A stretch of DNA of 64,000 nt. It comes from Pseudoalteromonas carrageenovora IAM 12662 (GTDB lineage: Bacteria > Pseudomonadota > Gammaproteobacteria > Enterobacterales > Alteromonadaceae). Below, piece after piece: positions 32,452 through 58,614 of this stretch (the first letter of the stretch is position 1; every line of letters starts with the position of its first letter). The translations under genes were made by a program, and so were the position numbers. The stretch is from the NCBI RefSeq assembly GCF_900239935.1, contig NZ_LT965928.1, forward strand, positions 482,945 through 546,944, in the 5' to 3' direction. Below the pieces are notes generated by a model. That model did not search any database, was not told where the DNA came from, and was given only the letters and a program-made list of their open reading frames with translations.

Positions 32452-32522
32452 GGCTGCGGGCTGCGGGCTGCGGGCTACGGGCTATACGGGCTATACGGGT
32501 TACGAGCTACGGATTACGGGCT
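32452..32522. repeat. Heptanucleotide tandem array, GGGCTRC type
   Basis: Degenerate 7-bp tandem units (GGGCTGC, GGGCTAC, plus variants with a TA insertion) after the small membrane ORF. It is part of the 499-bp space before cysD, which also holds a partial REP and a terminator. Confidence 0.75.
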
Positions 32523-32940: not shown

Positions 32941-33849
32941 ATGCATGAAGAAAAGCTAACCCACCTAAAGGCTCTTGAGGCCGAATCTATTCATATTATG
33001 CGAGAAGTTGCTGCCGAGTTTGATAACCCTGTAATGCTTTACTCTGTAGGTAAAGATTCGTCGGTTTTATTACATTTAGCACGAAAAGCATTTTACCCTG
33101 GCAAAATCCCTTTTCCGCTAATGCATGTTGATACTAACTGGAAATTTAAAGAAATGATCCAGTTTAGAGATCAAATGGCCGAAAAATATGGCTTTGACTT
33201 AATTGTTCATAAAAATCCTGAAGGTATTGCTATGGGCATGAGCCCATTTGAACACGGCAGTGCAAAACATACCGATGTTATGAAAACTCAAGGTCTTAAG
33301 CAGGCGCTTGATATGAATAACTTTGACGCTGCATTTGGCGGTGCTCGCCGCGACGAAGAAAAGTCTCGTGCTAAAGAGCGTGTATATTCATTTCGTGATA
33401 AAAACCACCGTTGGGACCCTAAAAACCAACGCCCAGAACTATGGAATGTGTATAACAGCAAGGTAGATAAAGGCGAAAGCATTCGTGTGTTCCCGCTTAG
33501 TAACTGGACCGAGTTAGATATTTGGCAATACATTTACCTAGAAGGTATTGAAATTCCATCGCTGTATTTTGCAAAAGAGCGCCCTGTAGTTGAACGTGGC
33601 GGCACACTTATTATGGTTGACGACGAGCGCATGAAGCTGAGTGAGGGCGAGCAAGCTCAAAACAAAATGGTTCGCTTTAGAACACTTGGCTGCTACCCAC
33701 TAACTGGTGCCGTTGAATCTGTTGCTCAAACTCTCCCTGAAATTATTCAAGAAATGCTGCTTTGTACTACCTCTGAGCGCCAAGGCCGAGTGATCGATAA
33801 CGACTCAGCAGGCTCAATGGAAAAGAAAAAAATGGAAGGGTATTTTTAA
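32941..33849 (+). CDS. cysD: Sulfate adenylyltransferase subunit 2 (CysD)
   Basis: ATP-sulfurylase catalytic subunit, which forms adenosine 5'-phosphosulfate from ATP and sulfate together with CysN. The PP-loop is [18 protein letters not shown] and the [21 protein letters not shown] stretch is typical of CysD. Start 32941 ([19 protein letters not shown]) gives 302 residues, the length of E. coli CysD. The longer TTG-started frame from 32899 lacks support. A four-helix-bundle gene and a heptamer array separate it from cysN, unlike the usual compact cysDN. Confidence 0.93.
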
Positions 33850-33872: not shown

Positions 33873-33895
33873 AGCTATGAGCTACGAGCTTATAG
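33873..33895. repeat. Short heptamer run before the four-helix-bundle gene
   Basis: AGCTATG, AGCTACG and AGCTTAT follow one another at exact 7-bp spacing, 24 bp after the cysD stop and about 50 bp before the next ORF. They resemble the array downstream of that ORF. Confidence 0.55.
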
Positions 33896-33947
33896 ATGCA
33901 ACTATTAGCTCTAAGTAAGTAGTTAAAAGTAATCAATAAGGATACTT

Positions 33948-34295
33948 ATGAGATACGAAAATTTAGAGGTTTGGCAGCGTAGTTTTCGCCTAAGTATAAA
34001 AATTTATAAAACATTTGAGCAGCTAAAAGACTTTGGTCTAAAAGATCAAATGTGTAGAGCTAGTGTTTCTGTTCCTAGCAATATTGCAGAAGGCTTTGAA
34101 AGAGAGTCCGACAAAGAAAAGGCTCGCTTTTTAGTTATAGCAAAGGGCTCTTTAGGCGAATTAAAAACACAGTTAATGATTGCAACTGAACTAGCTTATA
34201 TTTCAAAAGAAGATAGCTTATTGATTATTAATGAATGTGAATTAATTGGAAAAATGCTAGGTAGCCTAATTAGAACACTTAAAAGTTGCTCGTAG
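33948..34295 (+). CDS. Four-helix-bundle protein (23S rRNA IVP-like, TIGR02436)
   Basis: Small helical protein of 115 residues. YENLEVWQRSFRLSIKIYK and the central SVSVPSNIAEGFERESDKEKARFLVIAKGSLGELKTQL are the diagnostic blocks of the family first found as intervening-sequence proteins in 23S rRNA genes and related to the Avd accessory of diversity-generating retroelements. Biochemical function is unsettled. It interrupts cysD-cysN, is bounded on both sides by 7-bp repeats, and its TAG stop falls in a GCTCGTA heptamer. A clear paralogue with the same arrangement lies at 45446-45799. No reverse transcriptase is present. Confidence 0.88.
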   Translation: MRYENLEVWQRSFRLSIKIYKTFEQLKDFGLKDQMCRASVSVPSNIAEGFERESDKEKARFLVIAKGSLGELKTQLMIATELAYISKEDSLLIINECELIGKMLGSLIRTLKSCS

Positions 34296-34386
34296 CCCGA
34301 AGCTCGCAACATAAATAAATTTAAGCACGTAGCACGTAGCACGTAGTACGTAGCTCGTAGCTCGTAGCTCGTCGCTCGTCGCTTAC
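34288..34386. repeat. Heptanucleotide array, GCTCGTA / GTAGCAC types
   Basis: Three units (GCTCGTA, GCCCGAA, GCTCGCA) start within the four-helix-bundle gene's stop region. After a short AT-rich break, about nine units of GTAGCAC/GTAGCTC/GTCGCTC run up to 20 bp before cysN. The array is in the cysN leader. Confidence 0.8.
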
Positions 34387-34405
34387 AGCTTAAAAAGGAC
34401 TTAAA

Positions 34406-35818
34406 ATGACTGAACAAGCTCAAACAAACTTACTAGCTACAGATATTGAAGCTTATTTAAAAGTACACGAAAACAAAGATATGCTGCGTATTTTAACGTG
34501 CGGCAGTGTTGATGATGGTAAATCTACTTTAATTGGCCGCTTGCTTTACGATAGTAAAATGATTTTTGAAGATCAGATGGCTGCAATTGAAAAAGATTCA
34601 AAACGTTTTAATACCACCGATAACGATTTTGACTTAGCGCTTTTAGTAGATGGCCTGCAATCTGAGCGTGAGCAGGGTATTACTATTGATGTTGCGTATC
34701 GTTATTTTGCAACTGATCAGCGTAAATTTATTATTGCCGATACACCAGGGCACGAGCAGTACACACGTAATATGGCAACGGGTGCCTCTACGTGTGATTT
34801 AGCTATTATTTTAATTGATGCTCGTCACGGTGTGCAGGTGCAAACGCGCCGCCATAGCTTTATTTGTTCTTTATTAGGTATTAAAAACGTTGTGGTAGCT
34901 ATTAATAAAATGGATGCGGTAGGTTACGAGCAATCGGTTTATCAAAACATTAAAAAAGACTACCGTGAGTTTGCACAAGATCTTAAATTTGATGATGTAC
35001 GCTTTGTACCAATTTCGGCATTACGTGGCGATAACGTTGTAAACGAAAGCGAAGCAATGAGCTGGTACCCGGGCTCTACACTAATGAAGCTATTAAATAC
35101 GGTACAAGTAAACCATGCTAAAAATGATGAGTTTAGGTTACAGGTACAATATGTTAACCGCCCTAATTTAAACTTTAGAGGTTTTAGCGGTACCGTAGCT
35201 GCCGGTGGTATTAGAGTAGGCGATACCGTAGCGTCTTTGCCTTCGGGTAAAGAGAGTAAAGTTAAATCTATAGTTACGTTTGATGGCGACCTTGAAAAAG
35301 CATCTGCGGGTATGGCTATTACATTAACCCTTGAAGATGAAATTGATGTAAGCCGTGGCGATATGTTGGTACGCCCACATCAAAAACCACATTCGGCTGA
35401 TAGCTTTGTAGCCGACGTTGTATGGATGACCGAACAAGCCTTAAACGTAGATCGCGAATACGAAATTAAAGTAGGTAGTAAGTCGGTGTATGGTTACGCT
35501 GAGGCAATTAACTACAAAGTTGATGTTAATACGTTAAAGCAACAAGATGCGTCGCAATTAAACTTAAACGAAATTGGAAATTGCCAATTTGCATTAACAG
35601 CGCCTGTGCAATTTGATGCTTACGATATAAATAAGCATACCGGTGCCTTTATTATTATTGACCGTTTAACAAACGTGACTGTGGGTGCTGGCATGATACG
35701 TAAACCATTGGATGGTGAAAATAGTAAACCTAAAAGTGAGCATTCTGCATTTGAAATTGAGTTTAATGCACTGGTTCGTAAGCATTACCCGCACTGGGAT
35801 GCAAAAGTAATACGTTAA
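34406..35818 (+). CDS. cysN: Sulfate adenylyltransferase subunit 1 (CysN), GTPase
   Basis: Regulatory GTPase subunit of ATP sulfurylase, 470 residues, in which GTP hydrolysis drives adenosine 5'-phosphosulfate formation. The EF-Tu-like motifs are all present: G1 [19 protein letters not shown]3 [18 protein letters not shown]4 NKMD, and the SALRGDNV region. Beta-barrel domains follow to the C-terminus. It has no fused CysC domain; CysC is separate at 38088. A ribosome-binding site (AAAAAGGAC) sits after a heptamer array that occupies most of its leader. A hairpin follows the stop. Confidence 0.94.
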
Positions 35819-35831
35819 ATTACTTTATATA

Positions 35832-35859
35832 ACGGGCTTATATTAGCCCGTATTTTATT
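35832..35859 (+). terminator. Hairpin after cysN
   Basis: ACGGGCT (35832-35838) pairs with AGCCCGT (35845-35851) and is followed by ATTTTATT. A modest terminator, it may allow read-through into the permease gene 32 bp downstream. Confidence 0.55.
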
Positions 35860-35882
35860 AACTATGGATGGTTACTTAACTT

Positions 35883-37610
35883 ATGCTATTTGATGCATAT
35901 ATAACATTGGGTATTTTTGCTTTAACGATTTTAGGATTGATCGTTTTGCAAAAACGCCCCGTTGCTGTTTTTGGTGCAACGCTTGTCGCTTTAATTGCAT
36001 GTGATTTAGTAACTAAAAATCAGTTATTAACAAGTATTGCTAACCCTGGGCTTATAACACTTATTTTATTAATGTTGTGCTCGTTAGCGCTTGAAAAAAC
36101 ACGCCTGTTAAGAGTTATTGCATCTAAAACTATTGTTGATAGTTACTATTCAACATGGTTTAGACTATTTGGTGTAACTACGTTTTTCTCTTCTATATTA
36201 AACAACACAGCGGTAGTGGCTACGCTGCTTTCTCCTATTCGTAATAACCCCCATCATTTTGCCAGCAAATTACTATTGCCTTTGTCGTATGCCTCTATTT
36301 TAGGCGGTACGCTTACGCTTATTGGTACCTCTACCAATTTAATAGTTAACTCAATGTATATTGAGGCGTCGGGTAAGTCGTTGTCATTTTTTTCGTTTAC
36401 GGCGGTTGGCGCTATTTTAGTTTTGTGCTGTGGTGTAGCTATGTTTTTTTGTAACCGTATGCTGCCAAGTATTGAACAAAATAAAGCAACCTCAGAGGGT
36501 TACTTTATAGACGCTAAGGTATCTGTAGATTCTCAGCTTGTGGGTTACTCTGTTGAAGTTAATGGCCTTAGGCATTTAGAGTCATTATTTTTAGTTGAAA
36601 TAGTGCGCGAAGGTAGGCTTATTAGCCCTGTTTCACCTTCTGAAATAATACACCCATCAGATAGACTTATTTTTTGTGGTGATATAACTAAATTACTTCA
36701 GCTTGGACAGTTTTCAGGGTTAGAAATTTTTGCTGAAAAAACAGGCACAATAAACAGTAACCTTACAGAGGTTGTAATAAGGCAAGAAAGCCTACTTGTT
36801 GGTCGTACTTTAAAAACAACAGGCTTTAGGGCGTTGTTTGATGCTGCTGTGGTTGCAATAAGGCGTGACGGTGAGCGAGTGTCGGGTAAGTTGGGCGATG
36901 TAGTGATTCGCTCTGGCGACTTTTTAGTGTTAGCTGTTGGCGGTGACTATAAGTCGAGAACAAACATAAATAAAAACTTTTTAACACTGTCGGGTGTTGA
37001 GCCCGAAAGCAGAATTAATGGCTGGAAAGCTTGGCTTTCTGTTGGTGGGTTTGTAACGACCATTATACTGGCGGCTGTAGGAGTTTTAGACTTGCTAGAG
37101 GGCTTAGTATTATTACTGGGCAGTCTTTTATTTACACGGTGTTTAACTACAAACGAAATAGTAAGGCGTTTTCCTGTTGATATATGGCTGGTGGTGTCGT
37201 CTGCTATTTTATTATCGAATGCACTTGTTAACTCGGGAATAGTTGAGTTTATTGGTGGTTTTATAGGTCAGTTTAATGGGCCGCAATATGTTTATACCGC
37301 ACTTATATTGGTGTACTTAATAACATGGATAATGACCGAGTTTGTAACTAATAACGCCGCTGCCGCATTAATGTTCCCTATAGGTTATACGGTTGCGTTA
37401 GGGTTTGGTGTTGACGTATTACCTTTTGTAATGGCGGTAGCGTTTGCAGCAAGCGGCAGCTTTATTAGCCCTTATGGGTATCAAACCAATTTAATGGTTT
37501 TTAATGCAGGCAATTACAGATTGAATGATTTTGTAAAAATAGGCCTGCCAATTAGCGTTGTGTATGCACTTGTTGTGATGATATTTGTACCGGTGTTTTT
37601 TCCTTTTTAA
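35883..37610 (+). CDS. SLC13-family permease with RCK_C/TrkA-C domains
   Basis: Inner-membrane transporter of 575 residues of the divalent-anion:sodium symporter type. It has about eleven hydrophobic segments in two halves, with two cytosolic TrkA-C regions between them (about 190-370; LESLFLVEIVREGRLISPVSPSEI and the SLLVGRTLKTTGF segment). NNTAVVATLLSP and NNAAAALMFP are the two family re-entrant motifs, and GTSTNLIVNSM is the substrate/sodium loop. Its place between cysN and cysC makes sulfate the likely substrate. Sulfate specificity is inferred from context only. Confidence 0.85.
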   Translation: MLFDAYITLGIFALTILGLIVLQKRPVAVFGATLVALIACDLVTKNQLLTSIANPGLITLILLMLCSLALEKTRLLRVIASKTIVDSYYSTWFRLFGVTTFFSSILNNTAVVATLLSPIRNNPHHFASKLLLPLSYASILGGTLTLIGTSTNLIVNSMYIEASGKSLSFFSFTAVGAILVLCCGVAMFFCNRMLPSIEQNKATSEGYFIDAKVSVDSQLVGYSVEVNGLRHLESLFLVEIVREGRLISPVSPSEIIHPSDRLIFCGDITKLLQLGQFSGLEIFAEKTGTINSNLTEVVIRQESLLVGRTLKTTGFRALFDAAVVAIRRDGERVSGKLGDVVIRSGDFLVLAVGGDYKSRTNINKNFLTLSGVEPESRINGWKAWLSVGGFVTTIILAAVGVLDLLEGLVLLLGSLLFTRCLTTNEIVRRFPVDIWLVVSSAILLSNALVNSGIVEFIGGFIGQFNGPQYVYTALILVYLITWIMTEFVTNNAAAALMFPIGYTVALGFGVDVLPFVMAVAFAASGSFISPYGYQTNLMVFNAGNYRLNDFVKIGLPISVVYALVVMIFVPVFFPF

Positions 37611-37633
37611 GGATGTGGTTAGCGTCAAAAGTC

Positions 37634-37812
37634 GTGGGCAAAGGGCGATGGGCTACGGGCTAAGGGCGATGGGCGACGAGCAACGAGCAACGGGCAAAGG
37701 GCGATGGGCAACGAGCAAAGGGCAAAGGGCAACGGGCTACGGGCAAAGGGCAACGGGCTACGGGCGATGGGCTACGGGCTACGGGCGATGGGCAACGAGC
37801 TAAACGCTAAGA
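37634..37812. repeat. Long heptanucleotide array, GGGCTAC/GGGCAAC/GGGCGAT types
   Basis: About 25 units of 7 bp with mixed forms, 24 bp after the permease stop. Because the period is 7 it can stay open in several frames and makes a spurious 72-codon frame with a repeated ATGYG-like peptide. The 477-bp space to cysC is filled by this, a second array and two REP units. Confidence 0.88.
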
Positions 37813-37835
37813 GCGGCGCGGTGTTAAATTTACTT

Positions 37836-37900
37836 GTAGGCGTCTTGCTTGCTGGCGCGGTGTTGTAAAAATGTAAGTTTCGCTTATTGCGCGAGCAAGA
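37836..37900. repeat. Subfamily II REP palindrome, right end truncated
   Basis: Begins GTAGGCGTCTTGCTTGC, carries the inner TGTAAGTTTCGCTTATT, and stops within GCGCGAGCAAGA without the CACGCCTAC end. A GAGCGGCGCGGTGTTAAAT lead precedes it, as for its relatives. Confidence 0.8.
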
Positions 37901-37907
37901 TAGCTTT

Positions 37908-37954
37908 GGGCAACGGGCAACGGGCTACGGGCTACGGGCTACGGGCTAAGAGCG
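37908..37954. repeat. Heptanucleotide array, GGGCAAC/GGGCTAC
   Basis: Six to seven units between two REP palindromes. It ends in GGGCTAAGAGCGGCGCGG, the lead-in shared by neighbouring composite units. Confidence 0.8.
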
Positions 37955-37974
37955 GCGCGGTGTTAAAATTACTT

Positions 37975-38050
37975 GTAGGCGTCTTGCTTGCTGGCGCGGT
38001 GTTGTAAAAATGGAAGCTTGGCTTATTGCGTGAGCAAGCTTCACGCCTAC
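37975..38050. repeat. 76-bp REP palindrome, subfamily II
   Basis: Complete, from GTAGGCGTCTTGC to AGCTTCACGCCTAC, 37 bp before cysC and so in its untranslated leader. The inner part differs from the 80-bp form next to the transposase. Confidence 0.85.
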
Positions 38051-38087
38051 GAGGGAGTTTGGTGTTTAATAATAAAAAGGTGCTTTA

Positions 38088-38699
38088 ATGAGCCAAGACG
38101 AAAACATTGTATGGCACGCTCAAACTGTGTCGAGAGAGCAAAAACAACAACATAAAGGCCATAAGCCGCTACTGCTTTGGTGTACGGGGTTAAGTGGATC
38201 GGGTAAATCTACTGTGGCAAATGCAGTAGAGGCAAAGTTATTTTCACTTGGTTGCCATACTTATTTGCTTGATGGCGACAATGTTCGTATGGGCTTAAAT
38301 AAAGGGCTAACCTTTAGTGACGAAGATCGCATTGAAAATATTCGTCGCATTAGCGAAGTTGCAAAGTTATTTGTTGATGCGGGTTTAATTGTATCAACGG
38401 CGTTTATATCACCTTTTGCATCTGACCGCGCTCAAGCTCGTAGTATTGTTAATAAAGGCGAGTTTGTAGAGGTATTTATTGATACACCACTAGCTGTATG
38501 CGAAAGCCGCGACCCTAAAGGGTTATACAAAAAAGCACGTGCCGGTGAGATCCCCAATTTTACAGGGATTAGTTCATCATTTGATGTGCCTGAGCACCCA
38601 GAAATACACGTAAAAACAGCTGAGCAAACTATCGAACAAAGTGCAGAGCAAATTGTTAGTTATTTAATAAAAAATAAGATTATTGAAGTTAAGAGTTAG
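38088..38699 (+). CDS. cysC: Adenylylsulfate kinase (CysC)
   Basis: Phosphorylates adenosine 5'-phosphosulfate to 3'-phosphoadenosine 5'-phosphosulfate; 203 residues. The P-loop is WCTGLSGSGKSTVANAVE (30-47). LDGDNVRMGLNKGLTFSDEDRIENIRR and AGLIVSTAFISPF are conserved, and the lid region KGLYKKARAGEIPNFTGI contacts substrate. It stands alone between two repeat stretches. With cysD and cysN it completes PAPS synthesis; the PAPS reductase genes are not in this window. Confidence 0.94.
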   Translation: MSQDENIVWHAQTVSREQKQQHKGHKPLLLWCTGLSGSGKSTVANAVEAKLFSLGCHTYLLDGDNVRMGLNKGLTFSDEDRIENIRRISEVAKLFVDAGLIVSTAFISPFASDRAQARSIVNKGEFVEVFIDTPLAVCESRDPKGLYKKARAGEIPNFTGISSSFDVPEHPEIHVKTAEQTIEQSAEQIVSYLIKNKIIEVKS

Positions 38700-38706
38700 G
38701 GAAGGT

Positions 38707-38775
38707 GGCTGCTGAGGGCGGCGGGCGACGGGCGATGGGCTGAGAGCGACGGGCTAAGAGCGACGGGCTAAGAGC
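38707..38775. repeat. Degenerate heptanucleotide array after cysC
   Basis: Units such as GGGCGAC, GGGCGAT, GAGCGAC and GGGCTAA at 7-bp spacing, then the GAGCGGCGCGGTGTTAAAT lead to the next REP. This belongs to the 414-bp gene-free stretch before the DHH gene, which holds only composite repeats. Confidence 0.75.
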
Positions 38776-38795
38776 GGCGCGGTGTTAAATTACTT

Positions 38796-38871
38796 GTAGG
38801 CGTCTTGCTTGCTGGCGCGTTGGTTTAAAAATGTAAGCTTCGCTTATTGCGCGAGCAAGCTTCACGCCTAC
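38796..38871. repeat. 76-bp REP palindrome, subfamily II
   Basis: Complete GTAGGCGTC to GACGCCTAC-type palindrome with inner TGTAAGCTTCGCTTATT. Confidence 0.85.
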
Positions 38872-38884
38872 GGGTGGTGGCTTT

Positions 38885-38934
38885 GGGCAATGGGCAGCGG
38901 GTGATGGGCGACGAGCGAAAAACTACGAGCGGCG
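38885..38934. repeat. Degenerate heptanucleotide array
   Basis: About seven units (GGGCAAT, GGGCAGC, GGGTGAT, GGGCGAC, GAGCGAA and so on) between two REP palindromes. Confidence 0.7.
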
Positions 38935-38950
38935 CGGTGTTAAATTACTT

Positions 38951-39026
38951 GTAGGCGTCTTGCTTGCAGGCTCATTGGTTTAAAAATGTAAGCTTTGCTT
39001 ATTGCGCGAGCAAGCTTCACGCCTAC
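38951..39026. repeat. 76-bp REP palindrome, subfamily II
   Basis: Complete copy with TTGCAGGCTCATT in place of TTGCTGGCGC. It lies 87 bp before the DHH gene. Confidence 0.85.
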
Positions 39027-39113
39027 GGGTGGTAGCTTTGGGCGATGGGCGTAAAGCTGCGGGTAGAGCAGGGTCTATGATAAATTTTTTATATTTGGAT
39101 ATTTGAGAACATT

Positions 39114-40070
39114 ATGAAATACGATATTTTTAACGGTGATGCCGATGGCATTATCGCTCTATTACAGCTTCAACTGGCTAATCCTACGGATACTGTAAAG
39201 GTTACCGGTGTGAAAAGAGATATTCAATTAATGAAAAAAATCACTCCGCAAGAGGGTGATTGTATTCGAGTATTAGATATTTCAATGGAAAAAAACATGT
39301 CGGAGCTGCATGAAGCGTTGAGTGCGGGAGCTCGTGTAATGTATGTAGATCATCATAAAGCGGGAGACATACCTGCTCATGCTAATTTATTTGCACATAT
39401 CGATTTAGATGCAAATATGTGCACAAGCCTAATTGTAAGCGATTTAATTGATAAGCAATTTCACTTATGGGCTATTACTGCCGCCTATGGCGATAATTTG
39501 TTTGCAAAGGCAGATAGCGAAGCTGACGAACTAAATTTAACAGATTTACAAAAATCACAACTAAAAGCATTTGGTACATACATAAATTATAACGGCTACG
39601 GCAGTGAAGTGGCCGATTTGCACTTTGCACCAGAAGAGTTATACGAACTGCTTTTACAGTATAAATCTCCATTTGATGCAATAAACGATAAAAAATCGGT
39701 TTATTACACCCTTGAGCTAGCCTACAAAGCCGATATGGAAAAAGCTGCTAATGCACAGGTTGTACATGATTGCGATACAGCCAAGGTTATTTTGTTAGAG
39801 GATGCAGCCTGGGCCCGCCGAGTAAGTGGTGTATTAGGTAATGATTTAGCTAACCAATCGCCAAATAAAGCACATGCCGTATTTACCTTTAATAATAAAG
39901 GTAGTTACTTAGTAAGTGTAAGAGCGCCGCTTAACAATAAGCAAGGTGCCGTTGATATTTGTAGTAAATTTGCGACAGGCGGAGGCCGTGCCGCTGCTGC
40001 AGGCATAAACGAATTACCTAAATCGCAAGTTGAAAGCTTTGTTGAGGAGCTTGTAGGTTATTACAAGTAG
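39114..40070 (+). CDS. DHH-family phosphoesterase
   Basis: Cytosolic metal-dependent phosphoesterase-like protein of 318 residues. It has the DHH metal motifs FNGDADG (6-12), RVLDIS and VDHHK (about 81-85), and a C-terminal DHHA1-type glycine patch TGGGRAAAAGI. Size and architecture suggest a RecJ/NrnA-like nuclease or phosphatase, and PAP (3'-phosphoadenosine phosphate) hydrolysis would suit its place after cysC. That substrate is only an inference from location and the known NrnA activity. Confidence 0.82.
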   Translation: MKYDIFNGDADGIIALLQLQLANPTDTVKVTGVKRDIQLMKKITPQEGDCIRVLDISMEKNMSELHEALSAGARVMYVDHHKAGDIPAHANLFAHIDLDANMCTSLIVSDLIDKQFHLWAITAAYGDNLFAKADSEADELNLTDLQKSQLKAFGTYINYNGYGSEVADLHFAPEELYELLLQYKSPFDAINDKKSVYYTLELAYKADMEKAANAQVVHDCDTAKVILLEDAAWARRVSGVLGNDLANQSPNKAHAVFTFNNKGSYLVSVRAPLNNKQGAVDICSKFATGGGRAAAAGINELPKSQVESFVEELVGYYK

Positions 40071-40085
40071 AAATGTTAGGTAGTA

Positions 40086-40135
40086 ACGAACAACGAGCAG
40101 CGGGTGATGGGCGACGAGCGACGGGCTACGAGCGG
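40086..40135. repeat. Heptanucleotide array after DHH gene
   Basis: Units GAGCAGC, GGGTGAT, GGGCGAC, GAGCGAC, GGGCTAC and GAGCGGC at 7-bp steps starting 16 bp after the stop. The 423-bp stretch to galU contains two such composite units and the galU leader. Confidence 0.75.
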
Positions 40136-40154
40136 CTCGGTGTTAAATTTACTT

Positions 40155-40229
40155 GTAGGCGTCTTGCTTGCTGGCGCATTGGTTTAAAAATGTAAGCTTC
40201 GCTTTTGCGCGAGCAAGCTTCACGCCTAC
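40155..40229. repeat. 75-bp REP palindrome, subfamily II
   Basis: Complete, one base shorter in the inner CTTCGCTTTTGC part. Confidence 0.85.
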
Positions 40230-40241
40230 GGGTGATAGCTT

Positions 40242-40270
40242 TGGGCAAAGGGCGATGGGCTACGAGCGGC
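40242..40270. repeat. Short heptanucleotide array
   Basis: GGGCAAA, GGGCGAT, GGGCTAC and GAGCGGC between two REP palindromes. Confidence 0.7.
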
Positions 40271-40288
40271 TCGGTGTTAAATTTACTT

Positions 40289-40364
40289 GTAGGCATCTTG
40301 CTTGCAGGCTCACTGGTTTAAAAATGTAAGCTTTGTTTATTGCGTGAGCAAGCTTCACGCCTAC
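40289..40364. repeat. 76-bp REP palindrome, subfamily II
   Basis: Complete copy with changes (GTAGGCATC, TTTGTTTATT). It ends 130 bp before galU. The remaining galU leader is AT-rich and should contain its promoter. Confidence 0.83.
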
Positions 40365-40493
40365 GGGTGATAGCCTTGGGCTTATTTATTATTTAATAAA
40401 ACACGTTATTAGTTATATTCAGGTTATATCTACTTTACTGTTGGTAAGTTAAGATCAAACTATAAATTATTATTTTAAAATAAAGGACTAAAT

Positions 40494-41414
40494 ATGAAAG
40501 CTGTTATCCCTGTTGCGGGCCTTGGAACACGTATGTTACCAATGACTAAAGCTATTCCTAAAGAAATGCTACCAATTGTTGATAAGCCACTTATTCAATA
40601 CATTGTTAGTGAGTGTGTAGCTGCGGGTATTAAAGACATAGTGCTTGTAACTCATAGCTCTAAAAACGCGATTGAAAACCACTTTGACACAAGCTACGAG
40701 CTTGAAGCTACGCTTGAAAAGCGTGTTAAGCGTGCGCTGCTCGAAGAAGTTCGTTCTATTTGCCCGGCTGATGTAACAGTAATGAGCGTTCGTCAAGGCG
40801 AAGCTAAAGGCTTAGGGCATGCTATTTTATGTGCAAAACCTATTGTTGGCGATGACAATTTTATTGTATTACTACCAGATGTAATACTTGATGCTTATAC
40901 GGCTGATCAAAAAACTGAAAACTTAGCCGCTATGATCAAGCGTTTTAACGAAACCAAAGCTAGCCAAATTATGCTTGAGCCAGTAGCACAGGAAGACGTA
41001 AGTAAATACGGTATTGCTGATATTAATGGCGTGCAATTAACACCTGGCAACAGTGCTGCAATTAAAACTATGGTTGAAAAACCTGATGCTGACGTAGCGC
41101 CTTCAAACCTTGCGGTAGTTGGCTGTTATGTATTAAGTAAAAATATTTGGCCATTATTAGCTAAAACACCAGTTGGTGCTGGTGGCGAAATACAGCTAAC
41201 GGATTCTATTGATGCGTTAATGACACAAGAAACCGTTGAAGCGTTTCATATGAGTGGTCGCTCACACGACTGTGGCGATAAACTTGGCTACTTAAAGGCC
41301 ATTGTTGAATACTCAATGCGTGATGAAAAGTTAGGTAAAGACTTTACTGAGTTTATGACCCAAATTGCTCAAAGTGACGAGCAAACCGTTAAAGGTAATG
41401 TAGTAAACTTATAA
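40494..41414 (+). CDS. galU: UTP-glucose-1-phosphate uridylyltransferase (GalU)
   Basis: Makes UDP-glucose from glucose-1-phosphate and UTP; 306 residues. [33 protein letters not shown] (6-38) is the family nucleotide-binding signature. VLLPDVIL holds the metal-binding Asp and MVEKP the sugar-phosphate Lys. It supplies Ugd, the next gene (130 bp away, beyond a terminator), and so both polysaccharide loci. The ribosome-binding site AAGGAC lies 8 bases before the ATG. Confidence 0.94.
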
Positions 41415-41415
41415 C

Positions 41416-41451
41416 AAAAAAGCCCATACTTTTTTAAGTGTGGGCTTTTTA
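41416..41451 (+). terminator. Rho-independent terminator of galU
   Basis: AAAAAGCCCATACT pairs with AAGTGTGGGCTTTTT (one wobble position) directly after the stop codon, with a T-rich end. It could work in both directions. Confidence 0.85.
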
Positions 41452-41543
41452 CTTGTAGCTCTTTTAATTAAATTTATTGTTTATTCGTTTTAGCACCTAG
41501 CTCTGGTAAAATAATAAAAAACTTTTATACCTAAAGGAATAAT

Positions 41544-42710
41544 ATGAAAATCGCCGTAGTTGGTACTGGCTATGTAGGCCTTTCAAACGCTATGCTTTTA
41601 TCGCAGCACAATGAAGTTGTTGCGCTGGATATTGATGAGCAAAAAATTGCACTTTTAAACGATAAAAAATCACCGATTGTTGATACTGAAATTAGTGAGT
41701 TTTTAACGCGCAGTGACCTAAATTTTACAGCAACTACCGATAAAGTAGCGGCTTATAAAAATGCAGATTATGTAATTATAGCGACTCCTACTGATTACGA
41801 TGTAGAAAATAACTACTTTAATACCAACTCGGTTGAAGCGGTAATTAAAGATGCAATGGCGCATAACCCTAATGCAGTTATGGTAATAAAATCGACTATT
41901 CCTGTAGGCTTTACAGCCGATATTAAACAGCAGCTTAATGCTGAAAACTTAATATTTTCGCCAGAATTTTTACGTGAAGGTAAAGCCCTTTACGATAACT
42001 TACATCCGTCACGCATTGTGGTTGGTGAGCAAAGTGAGCGCGCTACTGTATTTGCTAATTTACTTAAACAAGGCGCTATTAAGCAAGATGTTGAAGTGCT
42101 ATTTACCGACTCAACAGAAGCTGAAGCAATTAAGTTATTTTCTAACACTTACTTAGCTATGCGAGTGGCTTACTTTAACGAGCTTGATAGCTACGCAGAG
42201 GCGCATGGGTTAAACAGCAAGCAAATTATACAAGGCGTAGGTTTAGACCCTCGCATTGGGAGTCATTATAATAATCCGTCGTTTGGTTACGGAGGCTACT
42301 GTTTACCAAAAGATACTAAGCAACTACGTGCAAATTACCAAGATGTGCCAAATAATATTATTGGCGCTATTGTAGATGCAAATACTACTCGTAAAGACTT
42401 TATTGCTGACTCAATTATTAAACGCAGCCCTAAAATAGTAGGTGTGTATCGCTTAGTAATGAAAACTGGCTCAGATAACTTTAGAGCGTCTGCTATTCAA
42501 GGCATAATGAAACGCATTAAAGCTAAAGGTATTGAGGTTGTTGTTTTTGAACCAGTACTTGAAGAAAACGAGTTTTATCATTCGCGTGTAATAAAAGACC
42601 TAAACGAGTTTAAGCAAATATCTGATGTTGTGGTTTCTAACCGTATGGTTGAAGAGCTAAGTGACATTGCAGATAAAGTGTACACACGAGATTTATTTGG
42701 TAGCGATTAA
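41544..42710 (+). CDS. ugd: UDP-glucose 6-dehydrogenase (Ugd)
   Basis: Two-step NAD-dependent oxidation of UDP-glucose to UDP-glucuronate; 388 residues, like E. coli Ugd. [13 protein letters not shown] (7-19) binds [27 protein letters not shown] is the substrate loop, and the catalytic Cys lies in [18 protein letters not shown] (near 250). Its product feeds the UDP-GlcA 4-epimerase at 8113. It is followed by a bidirectional hairpin, and the wzi gene converges on it. Confidence 0.94.
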
Positions 42711-42726
42711 AAAGTAAAAGTTTTTG

Positions 42727-42762
42727 AGTCTTCTAAGTAAACATATACTTAGAAGACTTTTT
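42727..42762. terminator. Bidirectional terminator between ugd and wzi
   Basis: AGTCTTCTAAGTA and TACTTAGAAGACT form a perfect 13-bp stem with a short ACATA-containing loop, with T-runs on both sides (TTTTTG before, TTTTTAA after). It serves the convergent genes. Confidence 0.85.
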
Positions 42763-42808
42763 AATAAATTATAATTTTATTAGCATAGTGCTGTATTGCT
42801 TATAAGTT

Positions 42809-44251
42809 TTAAAAGTTAGCAAAAACACCTAAGCGAGCAAACGTTTCTCCGTATACGTCCTTTCCTTGATAAAGCTCTGCACCCCAACTTTTAGCACCCA
42901 TTATTGGTTTACTTAATTTACGTGTATACGCTGTTTGCAGCTCGTAACCCGTTTTATAACCAGAGTTTTTATTTTCAAGTGAGCGCACAGTGGTATTAAG
43001 TGTTTCTATAGGACTTAATTGCCAATGCCAATTTACGCTCATTGATTTAGCTGCAGTATAGTCGGTATATTCGTGCTCATCGCCACCCCAGTGGCCAATA
43101 ACATTACCCGAGTTACGGTTTCCGTCTAAGTAAATACCATTTGCGTACCAAAGAAACTGCCAGTTACTGTGCTCAAAGCGTAAGCTGTGGTTGTTAGCAA
43201 TAAATGGCAAGTATAGGCCAAAGCTATAGGCGTTATTACGCGAGCCGCCTAAGGTATCTTCCAGTGCAACTTCACCATAAAGCTCATAAGGCATTGAATA
43301 AATACTGTTATTGTATTCAAAGGTAATAGAGCCTAATTGATCGCCTAGTTCGTAGTTTTCTCCAAGTTCATCAGCATCTTCTCGCCCTATATTGTCTTTA
43401 CTACCTGGGCTAAAAAAGCCTTCAGCAAAGTCTTTTAACGTTACGCTGCGCGGGCCGCCACCAAATTGCATTAAGCGGCTTAAACCAATAGTTAGGTTAT
43501 CGGTAGCAGCAAAGCTTGTATGAAAACCAAATAAGTACGGCTTACCAGGTTCGTAAACTCTATCTACACCTGTTTGTTTACCCTCTTTTAATATGCCGCT
43601 TTGCTCGGTCATTTGGCTTATAAACATGTCGTATCGAATGTTAAAGCTAGTTATTGGCTCTACGTTACTAAGCGTTATAGAAGGCGTTGTTTTAGCTTGT
43701 GTACTTAGTAGCATGGCGCTGTCTTCAAATGGTGAGTACCAATGCTCTCGGTAACCAATATCTAATTGGGCGTATTTATAACCTAGGTAAACAAAGCTTT
43801 GTGTTGGCAATATTTCGTCTTCGTTGGCTATGCCTGCCACACTTACACCAAAATGGCGACCAAAGTTGGCGTATGCGCCGCCTTCAACAATTAAGTTGGT
43901 TTTAGTGGTTTGTCCGCGTTGGTTTGGCAATGTTTTATTTTTTGTACCTGCGGCAATAGTCACTTTTGCAAATGCACCAGCATCGCTTTGAATATAAGGA
44001 CTAAGTTGGTACGAAAGTGTTTGATATAGCTCGGGGTAAGTGTGCCTAATAGTTTGTAGCACGTTGTAAATATCGTGCGCTTTATAAGGTTTACTCATTA
44101 TATGAGTGTTTTTACTTACGGCTAAAAGCCGTTGTACTTGGTGCTCAAGTTCAGGTACTTGGTTTAAAGGTAAGTAAGGTGACACACCTCCTTTAGCAAC
44201 TGCGTTTGCACTGATTGCCATCCCTATAAACAGTGATATTTTTTTGAGCAT
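42809..44251 (-). CDS. wzi: Wzi-family capsule assembly outer-membrane protein
   Basis: Outer-membrane beta-barrel of 480 residues that binds or attaches group 1-type capsule at the cell surface (Caps_assemb_Wzi). The signal peptide (LFIGMAISANAVAKG) is followed by a short helical N-terminal part and alternating aromatic strands, ending in a Phe (GVFANF) as barrels do. DIGYREHWYSPFEDSAMLLST is a typical family block. It is transcribed toward ugd. Its upstream space (472 bp, shared divergently with the peroxiredoxin gene) contains a long heptamer array. Confidence 0.88.
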   Translation of the reverse strand: MLKKISLFIGMAISANAVAKGGVSPYLPLNQVPELEHQVQRLLAVSKNTHIMSKPYKAHDIYNVLQTIRHTYPELYQTLSYQLSPYIQSDAGAFAKVTIAAGTKNKTLPNQRGQTTKTNLIVEGGAYANFGRHFGVSVAGIANEDEILPTQSFVYLGYKYAQLDIGYREHWYSPFEDSAMLLSTQAKTTPSITLSNVEPITSFNIRYDMFISQMTEQSGILKEGKQTGVDRVYEPGKPYLFGFHTSFAATDNLTIGLSRLMQFGGGPRSVTLKDFAEGFFSPGSKDNIGREDADELGENYELGDQLGSITFEYNNSIYSMPYELYGEVALEDTLGGSRNNAYSFGLYLPFIANNHSLRFEHSNWQFLWYANGIYLDGNRNSGNVIGHWGGDEHEYTDYTAAKSMSVNWHWQLSPIETLNTTVRSLENKNSGYKTGYELQTAYTRKLSKPIMGAKSWGAELYQGKDVYGETFARLGVFANF

Positions 44252-44367
44252 AATTATTCCGTTAGCAAATTTTATGATAGTAAAAACGTTAATGCGAGGT
44301 TAGCAATAAATACGTTAGTAAGAAAGGAAAAAGCGTTTATAGGCAGTAGTTTTGGGTTGTTAGTTTT

Positions 44368-44550
44368 TAGCTGTCAGCTGTCAGCTGTCAGCTATCAGCT
44401 ATCAGTTGTTAGTTATCAGTTATTAGTTATCAGTTATTAGTTATTAGTTATCAGTTGTTAGTTATCAGTTATCAGTTATCCGTTGTCAGTTATTAGTTAT
44501 TAGTTATTAGTTATTAGTTATTAGTTATTAGTTATTAGTTATTAGTTATT
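44368..44550. repeat. Heptanucleotide array, GTTATTA/GTTATCA/GCTGTCA, about 26 units
   Basis: The longest array in the window. It changes gradually from GCTGTCA and GCTATCA at the left to pure GTTATTA at the right and ends in TTTGATCTGACC. It lies in the divergent space of wzi and the peroxiredoxin gene, where promoters of both should lie at the flanks. Confidence 0.92.
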
Positions 44551-44723
44551 TGATCTGACCCTGATAAAGTAATTTATTCAAAAAGAAATTAGAGGGTGCT
44601 GCGCTTTAGATATGCAAAAAATAATAGGCTTTATGTTTTACTGAAAACGGTTTTTATAACATCTGTTTAGTAAATGCTATATGCTGTAACCGTATATTAT
44701 ATCAACACCAATAAGGATTTATC

Positions 44724-45197
44724 ATGATTGAGCAAGGCCAAAAATTACCAGATGTGACACTAACACAGTTAACTAATGACGGTATGCAAACACTTACTAA
44801 TAAAGATTTGTTTGATGGTAAAAAGGTAGTGCTATTTGCAGTGCCAGGCGCTTTTACACCAACGTGTTCTAATGCGCACTTACCTGAATTTATTACTCTT
44901 GCTGATAAAATAAAGGCTAAAGGTGTCGATGCTATTTACTGCGTATCGGTAAATGATGCATTTGTGATGAAAGCGTGGGGTGAATCGCAAAACGCAGAAG
45001 AAATTTCATTACTTGCAGATGGTGATGCAAGCTTTACCAAAGCACTAGGCCTTGATAAAGACACTGCCGGTTTTGGTGGCACTCGCTCTAGCCGTTACGC
45101 AATGATTATTGATAATGCTGAAGTAACAGGACTATTTGTAGAGCAAGGAAAAGAGTTTGAAGTGAGTCGCGCTGAGTATGTATTAGAGAAAATTTAA
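44724..45197 (+). CDS. Peroxiredoxin (Prx5/AhpE-like thioredoxin fold)
   Basis: Thiol peroxidase of 157 residues that reduces hydrogen peroxide and organic peroxides. VPGAFTPTCSNAHLPEF (41-57) holds the peroxidatic Cys49 in the P-x3-T-x2-C motif. The conserved Arg lies in the GGTRSSRYAM segment. A second Cys in AIYCVSV (about 72) is not at the usual resolving position, so it may use glutathione or thioredoxin as in the Prx5 group. The ribosome-binding site AAGGA is 7 bases before the ATG. A heptamer array follows the stop. Confidence 0.92.
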   Translation: MIEQGQKLPDVTLTQLTNDGMQTLTNKDLFDGKKVVLFAVPGAFTPTCSNAHLPEFITLADKIKAKGVDAIYCVSVNDAFVMKAWGESQNAEEISLLADGDASFTKALGLDKDTAGFGGTRSSRYAMIIDNAEVTGLFVEQGKEFEVSRAEYVLEKI

Positions 45198-45213
45198 GGG
45201 CGTTTTTAGGTTT

Positions 45214-45341
45214 TAGTTGTCAGTTGTCAGTTGTTAGTTGTTAGTTGTTAGCTATCAGCTATCAGCTATCAGCTATCAGCTATCAGTTATAAGCTGTCAG
45301 TTATTAGCTATCAGTTATTAGCTATTAGTTTTCAGCTATCT
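45214..45341. repeat. Heptanucleotide array, GTTGTCA/GCTATCA/GTTATTA
   Basis: About 18 units starting 17 bp after the peroxiredoxin stop, similar in sequence to the array on the other side of that gene. It lies about 105 bp before the second four-helix-bundle gene. Confidence 0.88.
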
Positions 45342-45445
45342 GTCGTAGGGCTTTGTAGGTAAGCTAGTTAGTATATGCTTACAGCCTTTTACTTTTTCGA
45401 AATGAGGTCTAGTATAAGCAAAGCTTATAGCTAATGGCTTAAATT

Positions 45446-45799
45446 ATGAACTTCGAAAGTTTGGATGTCTGGAAACGCTCAGCGCGATTAAGTGCGCAAA
45501 TTTACAAAGAGACTGCCTATATAAAGGATTTTGGATTTAGGGATCAACTAACTCGTTCTGGGTTATCTATACCGAGCAACATTGCAGAGGGTATGACTAG
45601 GGAAAGTAATAAAGAAAAAGTAAGGTTTTTAGATATTGCTCGATCATCACTTGCAGAAGCCCGGACCCAAATTTATATTGGAATAGATATAGGTTATATC
45701 AAACAGCCTGTAGGTACAGTTTGGTTAGATGAAACTGTGGCGTTATCAAAAATGTTGACGGGCTTAATTGCTAGACTAAAATCGACCGCTAACCGCTAA
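45446..45799 (+). CDS. Four-helix-bundle protein (23S rRNA IVP-like, TIGR02436), paralogue
   Basis: Helical protein of 117 residues with the same family blocks as 33948-34295: FESLDVWKRSARLSAQIYKE at the start and SGLSIPSNIAEGMTRESNKEKVRFLDIARSSLAEARTQI in the centre. The last four residues (TANR) and the TAA stop are encoded by the CGCTAAC heptamers of the array that follows, so the array has set the end of the protein. It lies alone between the peroxiredoxin and a convergent DUF3299 gene. Function unknown; a structural or RNA-related role is possible. Confidence 0.87.
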   Translation: MNFESLDVWKRSARLSAQIYKETAYIKDFGFRDQLTRSGLSIPSNIAEGMTRESNKEKVRFLDIARSSLAEARTQIYIGIDIGYIKQPVGTVWLDETVALSKMLTGLIARLKSTANR

Positions 45800-45853
45800 C
45801 CGCTAACCGCTAACCGCTAACCGCTAACCGCTAACCGCTAACCGCTAACCGCT
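45785..45853. repeat. Heptanucleotide array, CGCTAAC x about 10
   Basis: Nearly perfect 7-bp repeat that overlaps the last codons of the four-helix-bundle gene and reaches 5 bp from the convergent DUF3299 stop codon. Confidence 0.92.
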
Positions 45854-45857
45854 GAAC

Positions 45858-46358
45858 TTATAATTCAAACGGCGCTACGCCTACCGCTTTCATTTTATAT
45901 CCTACTTGGGCTATTTCGCCTGACCAGCTCTGTGTACTTATAATACCAGTTACTACTATTGCGTCGTATAAACTGTCGATAGGTACGCCGCCTTTAATTG
46001 TTACATGTACTATTTGGTTTGGCGGTGGTGGTGGTACGTGAATGCACGCGCCAAAGTATGGCACTAATAAAAACTCGGTGATCACTTCGCTATCGCCCTC
46101 TAGCGGCACTACAAAACCTGGTAAACTCACAGATTTTCCATCAAGCGCTTTTACTACTGGTGCATCTAAATCGGGTTGCACCCAATTTTGCTCACTGCCT
46201 TCATGATTGGCTTGCGCTTGTGTATCTATTTGTACATGGCCTTTAGGAATTAAATCTTCCCAAAAAATCTCTTTTGGCGGGTTGGCATTACTAATAAAGC
46301 TTATAAATAATAAGCTAATGCATAAGCTGTAATTAACTACTGTTTTAAAAAACGTCAT
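45858..46358 (-). CDS. DUF3299 periplasmic protein
   Basis: Secreted protein of 166 residues (signal peptide VVNYSLCISLLFISFISNANP). The core block SLPGFVVPLEGDSEVITEFLLVPYFGACIHVPPPPPNQIV (about 80-118) is the DUF3299 signature, with one Cys and a poly-Pro turn. It is 15 bp downstream of an FtsX-type permease and its ATPase, so the three form an operon. In vibrios similar sets accompany a zinc-related periplasmic protein (as I recall, the Zrg system), so a metal-related role is possible, but function is unproven. Confidence 0.85.
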   Translation of the reverse strand: MTFFKTVVNYSLCISLLFISFISNANPPKEIFWEDLIPKGHVQIDTQAQANHEGSEQNWVQPDLDAPVVKALDGKSVSLPGFVVPLEGDSEVITEFLLVPYFGACIHVPPPPPNQIVHVTIKGGVPIDSLYDAIVVTGIISTQSWSGEIAQVGYKMKAVGVAPFEL

Positions 46359-46373: not shown

Positions 46374-47672
46374 TTATATTTTTATACTCATGCCATCGCT
46401 GAGTGAGTAAAAGTAAGCTCGGGTGGCGGGTATTAAACCAATAATAAAACCGGCAGCCATAATAACGCCTATTAAGGTGAGTTCATAGTAAGAGAGCATA
46501 GCTATGTTTACGCTTATGCCTGCGTGGCTTTGTAGATAGCTACTGGCTAAAAGCATAACTAAGTAATAAAGCGCGCTGCCTACAATGCACCCGAGCAAGG
46601 TGGTAAAAAGTGACTCAATACTTATTAGCGTGAATAATTGCCAAGGGCGAGCACCTACAGAGCGCAATATAGCAAGTTCGCGTCGTCGTTGGTTTAAATT
46701 AGCAAGCAGCGTAGTGAGCATACCTAATAAACTAACCAGCACTACAACACCCGAAAACAACAGTAATACTTTTTCGACTATTGCTAACATTTGCCACAGC
46801 TCTTTAAGCGTTACCGTTGGCATAATGCCAAGCAGTGCTTCTTTTTTATATTGATTTATATTTCGCCTAATTTGTAGCGTGTATAAAGGCGAATCGAAGC
46901 CCATTAAAAAAGCGGTAATTTGTTTGGGGTGCCCCGTTAAATCATTATGCTTTTCGTGTTCATCGTGTTCATCGTGTTCATCGTGTTCATCGTGTTCATC
47001 GTGTTCATCGTGTTCATCGTGTTCGTTATGAGCAGAGCTATCATGTATTAAATCAATTGCGGCCAGTGGTATGTGTAAGGTTTTATCCACTGGCGTGCCA
47101 GTGGCATTTAAAATGCCGATAACTTTAAAAGGGTTGTCTTTATGGTGATGAAAGCTGGTATTGCCCATACCATGAGATATAACTATTTGGTCACCTAATT
47201 TATAATTTAAGCGGTTTGCTACATCACTTCCTAGTACTACTTCGTTAATGGCTGTAAAGGCATGCCCTTGGTTAAAGGTTAAGTTCTGTTTTTTAGCAAA
47301 TTGGTAATGCGCAAAGTAATCAAGCGTTGTACCAAGTACCGCTTTGCCTTTATGGCTATCGCCAAGGCTTATAGGAATACTCCATTTAACGCCGCGTTGA
47401 TGAGTAATGTATTCATAACTTTGCCAGCTTACGCCATTATTTGTATGGCCAATTCTAAATACTGATGAAAGCAATAATTGTATATCGCCGGTTCGCGCTC
47501 CCACAATTAAATCGGTGCCTGAAATAGTATTGCTAAAACTACTTTTTGCATCAACTCGTATGCGCTCAATGCTTAAAAGCAGCATTACACTTATAGCGAT
47601 GGTAAAAAGCGTGAGTAATACGCTTGCACGACGATTTAATAAGCTTTTGTAGGCAAGTTTAGTAAGGATCAT
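46374..47672 (-). CDS. FtsX/MacB-type ABC permease with a Asp-Glu-His repeat
   Basis: Inner-membrane permease of 432 residues. It has one N-terminal helix (LLTLFTIAISVMLLL), a large periplasmic domain, and three helices in the C-terminal FtsX domain (starting VVVLVSLLGMLTTLLANLNQRRRELAILRSVGA). The periplasmic domain carries a tandem run of Asp-Glu-His at about residues 216-240, encoded by eight 9-bp repeats, plus nearby His-rich HHHKDN. This suggests metal (Zn or Cu) binding. It overlaps the ATPase gene by 4 bp. It resembles lipoprotein or substrate-extruding systems rather than importers. Confidence 0.87.
   Translation of the reverse strand: MILTKLAYKSLLNRRASVLLTLFTIAISVMLLLSIERIRVDAKSSFSNTISGTDLIVGARTGDIQLLLSSVFRIGHTNNGVSWQSYEYITHQRGVKWSIPISLGDSHKGKAVLGTTLDYFAHYQFAKKQNLTFNQGHAFTAINEVVLGSDVANRLNYKLGDQIVISHGMGNTSFHHHKDNPFKVIGILNATGTPVDKTLHIPLAAIDLIHDSSAHNEHDEHDEHDEHDEHDEHDEHDEHEKHNDLTGHPKQITAFLMGFDSPLYTLQIRRNINQYKKEALLGIMPTVTLKELWQMLAIVEKVLLLFSGVVVLVSLLGMLTTLLANLNQRRRELAILRSVGARPWQLFTLISIESLFTTLLGCIVGSALYYLVMLLASSYLQSHAGISVNIAMLSYYELTLIGVIMAAGFIIGLIPATRAYFYSLSDGMSIKI
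46955..47026. repeat. 9-bp in-frame tandem repeat in permease gene
   Basis: CGTGTTCAT (plus strand) repeated eight times, the last copy changed to CGTGTTCGT. It encodes Asp-Glu-His triplets, and copy-number changes would keep the frame. Confidence 0.9.
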
Positions 47673-58612: not shown

Positions 58613-58614
58613 TT

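Follow-up and report, generated by a model that had tools for sequence, protein, structure and literature searches.

Genes of the PF05635/TIGR02436 family between inverted arrays of tandem heptamers point to a widespread, largely overlooked repeat-bound genetic element

Two small genes of the PF05635/TIGR02436 family (IVP, S23p or four helix bundle proteins), a family known chiefly from insertions within ribosomal RNA, are here called IVP-1 and IVP-2. They lie 11.5 kb apart in a 64-kb stretch of the Pseudoalteromonas carrageenovora IAM 12662 genome (C1:482945-546944, hereafter the window), and are the only TIGR02436 genes of that genome. Comparison with related loci leads us to propose, with a probability of about 55%, that a gene of this family is the coding core of a compact, widespread element akin to the intervening sequences (IVSs) of ribosomal RNA (rRNA), flanked by inverted heptad arms that its own protein recognises. 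The element has a recurrent anatomy, in which arms of tandem 7-bp units (heptamers), specific to IVP genes, stand inverted on the two sides of the gene, and within Pseudoalteromonas the consensus of the unit changes with the protein subfamily. Its intergenic sites vary between species, some having them filled and others empty, and between tandem neighbours the gene runs in their direction. We take the IVP gene with its heptamer arms to point to a widespread, largely overlooked repeat-bound genetic element.

Both window proteins match PF05635 (126.1 bits for IVP-1 and 106.9 bits for IVP-2; cut-off 33.8) and TIGR02436 (123.5 and 107.3 bits; cut-off 24), and their fold is assigned from sequence matches to 2gsc and 2rld. 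Profile searches gave no match to a transposase family in the IVP open reading frame (ORF), Pfam returning only PF05635 and a weak bAvd match. Both genes sit between protein genes, not inside an rRNA gene, and no Rfam family matched at gathering score between window positions 30000 and 64000. The flanking arrays are listed in Table 1. An earlier reading of the sequence alone (the original prediction) had embedded both genes in heptamer arrays, and this was borne out, with heptamers on both sides of each. As it had stated, the TAG stop of IVP-1 (34293-34295) falls inside a GCTCGTA unit, and the final codons of IVP-2 (ACC GCT AAC CGC) together with its TAA stop consist of heptamers of the downstream array, a second array lying upstream of the gene. 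The inversion of the arms and a third, probably ORF-less element at 63226-63396 were both absent from it. The upstream unit of IVP-1, GAGCTAT, is of the same type as the reverse complement of its downstream arm. Scanned at a lag of 7 bp, the window contains 12 arrays, with none at lags 5, 6, 8 and 10-13 and two at lag 9; twenty other 20-kb stretches of the genome (400 kb) contain two arrays in the adjacent downstream stretch, L037, and two in the remaining 19 together. The heptamer arrays of the window are not due to chance.

Table 1 Features of the window, numbered from its first base (TRF, Tandem Repeats Finder; W, window ORF number; L, locus in a relative)
Feature	Position	Strand	Remarks
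IVP-1 upstream arm	33873-33893	+	three degenerate heptamers, AGCTATG AGCTACG AGCTTAT; unit GAGCTAT
IVP-1 gene	33948-34295	+	115 aa; Pseudoalteromonas subfamily 3; W28-W30 interval
IVP-1 downstream arm	34324-34383	-	unit GAGCTAC on - strand; TRF 8.6 copies, 92% matches
IVP-2 upstream arm	45202-45340	+	TRF; units AGCTATC, AGTTATC, AGTTGTT; type AGNNNTY
IVP-2 gene	45446-45799	+	117 aa; subfamily 0; W37-W39 interval
IVP-2 downstream arm	45785-45853	-	unit AGCGGTT on - strand; TRF 9.9 copies, 100%
Third element, upstream arm	63226-63282	+	W54-W55 interval; probably ORF-less IVP element
Third element, remnant	63283-63313	+	aligns with 3' end of L055 IVP gene; ~19/28 bases identical, hand count
Third element, downstream arm	63314-63396	-	unit AGCGGTC on - strand, as in L055; TRF 11.9 copies, 100%
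Solo array	12372-12444	-	site W10-W11; type AGNNNTY; IVP gene at same site in L067, L084
Solo array	32452-32484	+	type GRGNNNC
Two solo arrays	37636-37793, 37908-37948	+	site W31-W32; IVP gene there in L056, L058, L063, L090
Solo array	44356-44550	+	before W37; type AGNNNTY
Solo array	58614-58683	-	type AGNNNTY
Solo array	62321-62364	-	site W53-W54; type AGNNNTY (TAACTGA heptamer)
W05	5416-5964		
W06	6128-8080		
W10	11882-12364		
W11	13274-14389		
W28	32899-33849		presumably cysD
W30	34406-35818		presumably cysN
W31	35883-37610		
W32	38088-38699		
W34	40494-41414		presumably galU-like
W35	41544-42710		
W37	44724-45197		
W39	45858-46358		
W54	62431-63210		
W55	63397-63942		

An IVP gene is present in 36 of 108 Pseudoalteromonas species. 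Forty stretches picked around IVP genes (L052-L091) contained 51 IVP ORFs, 50 of them with enough flanking sequence, and an array lay within 200 bp of 37 of these 50 (16 on both sides) versus 116 of 613 other ORFs (24 on both sides). Stretches centred on W34 in 20 of the 72 IVP-lacking species (389 kb) contained no array, the two sets of stretches having different anchors, IVP genes and W34; seven of these 20 species (G001, G004, G005, G014, G015, G081 and G101) show array patterns elsewhere in the genome. Searched genome-wide, CAGNTNT x3 was found in 31 of the 36 species with an IVP gene versus 11 of the 72 without, tandem CTAGGNN in 25 versus 9, and either pattern in 33 versus 17 (hand tally; Fisher p = 5e-12, kinship not corrected), so that arrays do not lie mostly in genomes without the gene. 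The reversed patterns, used as a control, gave 4 hits for CAGNTNT, all in G065, and 0 for CTAGGNN.

The association extends beyond the genus. A contig scan with the IVP alignment covered the best 80 of 585 relatives, 70 of them outside Pseudoalteromonas, and a lag-7 array was found within 400 bp of the gene at 37 of these 70 loci versus 12 of 119 far windows. At the same loci lag 8 was seen in 5, lag 12 in 2, and lags 5, 6, 9, 10, 11 and 13 in none. Octamers as a second general period were rejected, since lag 8 is also seen far from the gene (6 of 119 far windows) and only single 8-bp loci are convincing; 8-bp units replace 7-bp units in the arms at L098, L140, L155, L218 and L240, and genome G261 has both periods at different IVP genes. 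The array-bearing loci outside the genus include Clostridia, Ruminococcus, Verrucomicrobia, Planctomycetes, Acidobacteria, Saccharibacteria, Bacteroidetes and Elusimicrobia. In a set de-duplicated at 85% protein identity that includes an even sample across the class (136 of 143 loci with full flanks), autocorrelation beside the IVP gene peaks at lags 7, 14, 21 and 28, and the lag-7 value is 0.433 near versus 0.275 far from the gene in Pseudoalteromonas (27 loci) and 0.322 versus 0.264 in the other 109. Most homologues thus do not lack arrays, as they should if the original prediction were wrong; with arrays at 37 of 70 loci here and 37 of 50 in the genus, they are common, not universal.

The two arms are inverted with respect to one another. 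We compared the upstream flank of each gene with the reverse complement of its downstream flank, taking as threshold the 99% point of the controls (15.48). Median scores were 14.5 for the inverted comparison, 9.0 for the direct one, 8.0 for mismatched loci and 8.5 for far flanks, and 61 of 136 loci exceeded the threshold when inverted versus 11 when direct; by group, the 61 comprise 8 of 27 Pseudoalteromonas loci, 34 of 70 from the contig scan, 11 of 24 from the class and 8 of 15 from a further group of loci. With the threshold unchanged, 22 inverted versus 3 direct arm pairs passed among 36 further non-redundant loci, and 15 versus 0 in a GGGNATC-bearing family (30 loci, not de-duplicated), so that the three sets pooled give 98 inverted and 14 direct among 202 loci. 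Inverted arms are also a property of the IVP gene itself: outside Pseudoalteromonas they flank 33 of 64 IVP ORFs (5 direct) versus 0 of 89 other small ORFs (2 direct) and 2 of 110 large ones (1 direct), ORFs within 700 bp of an IVP gene being excluded from the controls. The link between these genes and 7-bp arrays put forward in the original prediction is thereby well supported. Among 27 Pseudoalteromonas genes with a dominant unit on both sides, the units were more alike when inverted in 20 and when direct in 3, and at L126, L154 and L157 the two arms even agree in the order of their variant units. Purines predominate in the upstream arms (G 737, A 700, T 514, C 325).

Inverted arms could act in RNA or in DNA. 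In the former case, which we consider unlikely, they would form a stem in the host transcript that is cut by RNase III and bound by the protein, and insertion would be tolerated wherever a cut transcript works, between genes and in rRNA loops. There is a precedent in the 23S rRNA IVS of Coxiella, for which the passages covered of PMC4990558 describe a terminal stem of 28 bp and cleavage by RNase III at the first heptamer, and the direction of the genes agrees with it: outside Pseudoalteromonas, 84 IVP genes at tandem sites are co-directional with their neighbours versus 14 against (p = 2.5e-13), and inside the genus 15 versus 2. However, those 14 of 98 oppose their neighbours, the upstream and downstream units of a gene often agree only in consensus and differ at the free positions, and mismatches between the arms show no excess of the G-U type over the A-C type (70 versus 72 in 61 loci). 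The last result gives no signal of selection for an RNA stem, which we rejected, and favours duplex DNA. Because the arms are mirror images with a common consensus, lack G-U tuning and change with the subfamily, they resemble sites for duplex binding at either end of a single unit, and we prefer recognition of DNA by the oligomer. Double-stranded DNA would be the simplest target, since the protein would then meet one motif in both arms, mirrored as in terminal inverted repeats. The co-direction with neighbours suggests use of host transcription by the element, and the rRNA IVS suggests possible cleavage of an RNA stem; the two are compatible.

Single linkage at 62% divides the Pseudoalteromonas IVPs into four main subfamilies and three singletons, and the heptamer unit follows the subfamily: AGNNNTY in subfamily 0 (26 genes), AAAGNNN/AAGGNNC in subfamily 1 (12 genes), AGGNNCT in subfamily 2 (6 genes) and GRGNNNC in subfamily 3 (6 genes). 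Position counts for the units were taken after registering them to the expected consensus, so that the fixed positions are partly built in and the free middle positions are not. Exceptions include the unit AAGCTAT in subfamily 0 at W28-W30, and L080 and L083, which have no clear unit. For pairs at different sites, unit similarity is 0.672 within subfamilies (81 pairs) versus 0.517 between them (215 pairs), a difference reached by 0 of 2000 label shuffles, and at W05-W06 the unit tracks the subfamily rather than the site (L064 and L078 versus L075). A subfamily-specific consensus fits the guess in the original prediction that the protein binds the repeats, which it might also spread or maintain. 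At W31-W32, L063 and L090 carry a composite in which a gene of subfamily 0 and its downstream arm follow an upstream array typical of subfamily 2, as though an element had inserted into another's arm.

Related elements occupy different sites, and these sites are empty in relatives, as is found for mobile elements. Site labels number 12, 6, 5 and 5 in the four subfamilies, some of them with a common neighbour, and the W05-W06 interval measures 151-166 bp when empty and 663-861 bp when filled; a target-site duplication was looked for at four filled/empty sites, where the junctions are not resolvable. Three sites of window arrays, W10-W11, W31-W32 and W54-W55, are occupied by IVP genes in relatives. 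At W54-W55 the relative L055 has a whole IVP element, and on the alignment the array pair 63226-63396 most probably represents an element whose ORF was lost while both arms remained. Solo arrays, defined as lying more than 300 bp from an IVP gene, number 98 in the window and L052-L091. The four arm motifs fit 88 of them versus 29% of random heptamers, and 55 of the 88 match a subfamily resident in the same genome where 39.5 were expected (28 of 5000 permutations). Of the 12 window arrays, 10 could be classified, all as types of its two resident subfamilies, and the other two fit GRGNNNC best; the solo array 37636-37793 is below the class threshold, with its best score for that type. Elsewhere in the genome, the type of an array in L032 has no resident IVP, and an array in L037 fits no motif. 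The idea that solo arrays in Pseudoalteromonas are non-autonomous elements made of inverted pairs was not supported, inverted and direct being about even: 18 IVP-less pairs less than 600 bp apart comprised 8 inverted-like, 8 direct-like and 2 tied, and 36 pairs 600-2000 bp apart comprised 12, 15 and 9, respectively. The pair 63226-63396 is an exception, which we put down to loss of the ORF.

Without any mobility, the heptamers might be binding sites through which an IVP-type regulator acts on its neighbours and its own gene. We hold this to be improbable. Units specific to subfamilies would suit it, and so would the TAACTGA repeats of MacGregor 2015, most of them just upstream of start codons in one genome; the parts covered of that paper speculate that a TAACTGA-binding protein may itself be mobile (PMC4679880). 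On the other hand, the arms flank the gene on both sides in mirror orientation, and array sites are not conserved, since relatives carry an IVP gene, or nothing, at some of the array sites of the window. It is very improbable, and was already disfavoured, that slippage in a plastic polysaccharide region produces the arrays and that IVP genes merely land there: many Pseudoalteromonas IVP genes and arrays do cluster in that region and 17 of 72 IVP-lacking species have arrays, but the W34 region of 20 such species (389 kb) has none, the period is specific to lag 7 and not to lags 5, 6, 8 or 10-13, the units are subfamily-specific, and the same anatomy recurs across many phyla at loci whose other ORFs are without it.

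Among known systems, the REP/RAYT pair (REPtron, REPIN) combines a gene between inverted copies of a repeat scattered over the genome (the repetitive extragenic palindrome, REP) with protein-repeat specificity; RAYT is an HUH transposase, and REPs are palindromes, not heptad arrays. A repeat-flanked gene with a genome-scattered repeat is likewise found for IVP, in its arms and in solo arrays of the same motif classes. IVP is not an HUH (Y1) transposase, its matches being PF05635 and, weakly, bAvd, and unlike a classical DNA transposon the element has no transposase domain. To the Avd protein of diversity-generating retroelements (DGRs) IVP-1 bears a weak likeness (DivGenRetAVD, NF033474, 20 bits; bAvd, PF22296, 19.6 bits; below the cut-offs of 80 and 40), but no reverse transcriptase stands next to either window gene, the two RVT_1 matches of the genome lying on contigs C2 and C3, outside the window. 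IVP-Avd similarity is noted in the parts covered of PMC10053308.

The nearest relative is the Coxiella 23S rRNA IVS, which shares with the window elements the protein family, the terminal inverted repeats and the tandem heptamers, two or three copies of GACAGAT, before the S23p ORF (PMC4990558, passages covered). An IVP/S23p ORF between terminal inverted repeats is one mark of such sequences, and the inverted arms of 98 of our 202 loci exceed the 99% control threshold; neither window gene lies inside an rRNA gene. They differ from the Coxiella IVS in standing between protein genes, with long arrays on both sides and like arrays scattered genome-wide. The original prediction supposed the link between gene and heptamers to be undescribed; this holds for its generalisation, the passages covered of PMC4990558 not extending the heptamers to free-standing genes, and fails for the heptamers before the Coxiella ORF, which that paper already reports. 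The function and origin of rRNA IVSs are still termed unclear there. Intergenic GGGNATC heptamers were described by Rehm 2015 in Xanthomonas and Nostoc, with 70 and 75 convergent pairs in two genomes, and presented as G-quadruplex repeats; the terms IVP, S23 and four-helix are absent from the text covered (PMC4692102). We found the GGGNATC heptamer in 12 of 29 IVP-bearing versus 7 of 49 IVP-lacking genomes of the G494 family (p = 0.013), and GGGAATC-like arms, judged by eye, at 8 of its 30 IVP loci (L302, L307, L308, L310, L311, L317, L323 and L327), 7 of them above the arm threshold. The TAACTGA heptamer of MacGregor 2015 recurs in several window arrays, AGTTATC being its reverse complement in rotation; the text covered names no protein partner and contains none of S23, IVP or four helix (PMC4679880). 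Among the matches listed in a literature search whose scope excluded subscription journals and preprints, the IVP-heptamer link appears only in the Coxiella IVS paper, and no text joins the Coxiella, GGGNATC and TAACTGA findings.

We picture the element as an ORF of ~350 bp flanked by two arms of tandem 7-bp units, or of 8-bp units in some cases, with the unit type of the upstream arm recurring downstream as its reverse complement. The IVP protein, a relative of the XCC0516 pentamer and distantly like DGR Avd, would recognise the unit. Judging from their distribution, gene and arms may travel slowly as one unit, with horizontal transfer or recombination between arrays as possible routes. Slippage would lengthen and shorten the arrays, which could remain as solo arrays after loss of the ORF, and the 23S rRNA IVSs would be members that landed in rRNA. 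A bolder extension, which we offer tentatively, makes the IVP oligomer a repeat-specific mover or maintainer that reads a subfamily-dependent heptad code, in which some four positions are fixed and three free, makes or copies its own inverted arms and gives rise to solo arrays in the genome. The TAACTGA, GGGNATC and GACAGAT repeats and the rRNA IVSs would then be the products of one family and would constitute a new class of mobile element.

Several observations weigh against an element recognised and moved with its arms. Arms above the threshold are lacking at 104 of 202 IVP loci, Pseudoalteromonas passes the test in only 8 of 27, and the whole arrays flanking its IVP genes are 18 inverted-like, 11 direct-like and 3 tied (n = 32), a weaker bias than that of the dominant units (20 versus 3 of 27). 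Arrays occur in 17 of 72 IVP-lacking species, one of which, G036 (3 contigs), gives 86 and 97 heptamer-pattern hits, so that arrays can persist, or arise, without IVP. The match of solo arrays to the resident subfamily is due to type 0 (37 of 42), with 18 of 46 for the remaining types, and co-inheritance of gene and arms could yield the subfamily rule without binding. Recent transposition was not seen: within six multi-copy genomes the IVP copies have median identities of 22-42%, with a top pair at 83%, and the closest Pseudoalteromonas pair at different sites has 83.5% DNA identity. A preference for operon-like (tandem) sites was rejected, 87 of 133 IVP sites being tandem versus 638 of 793 control pairs. 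The Coxiella paper considers production of S23p in vivo improbable and its ORF to be in decay (PMC4990558, passages covered).

IVP/S23 genes occur in many bacterial phyla with no accepted function, and more than one report of heptamer arrays leaves their cause unexplained (PMC4679880 and PMC4692102, in the parts covered). Linking the two opens both to testing, since a motif can be predicted for every protein subfamily, and suggests an origin for rRNA intervening sequences. IVP-heptamer pairs would also form a natural protein-repeat set for studying the rise and spread of short tandem repeats.

IVP-1 had no match in 50,697 phage records and PADLOC models gave none, and IVP-2 matched 21 of 72,556 plasmid records, mostly cyanobacterial. 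A Pseudanabaena plasmid (L272) carries an IVP gene between cas6 and cas4, and a Nostoc plasmid (L278) carries one, opposite to its neighbours, between two ribonucleotide reductase genes.

Seven IVP genes contain an insert of ~78 bp at the same conserved codons, between SNIAE and G, with differing flanking codons (L082:9551-9632, L066, L067, L068, L069, L086 and L087). The 107 Pseudoalteromonas genomes searched contain seven full-length matches to it, all in IVP genes, and a 26-bp partial match in G050, and from this distribution the insert seems to home on IVP genes. Four hairpins make up its fold, and both partners change in 2 of the 23 pairs, in one sequence each, with a negligible covariation term; Rfam AaHKsRNA22 is matched by four of the seven copies at E up to 0.1, below the cut-off (best 31.9 versus 39.8 bits).

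Other repeats of the window include eight perfect copies of the 9-bp unit TCGTGTTCA at 46954-47024, which encode a His-Asp-Glu repeat within the ORF 46374-47672. Tandem repeats of 123-155 bp with GTAGGCG...CGCCTAC palindromes adjoin heptamer arrays at 9818-10184, 12708-13023, 37768-38038 and 38768-39050, and resemble GTAG-tagged REPs.

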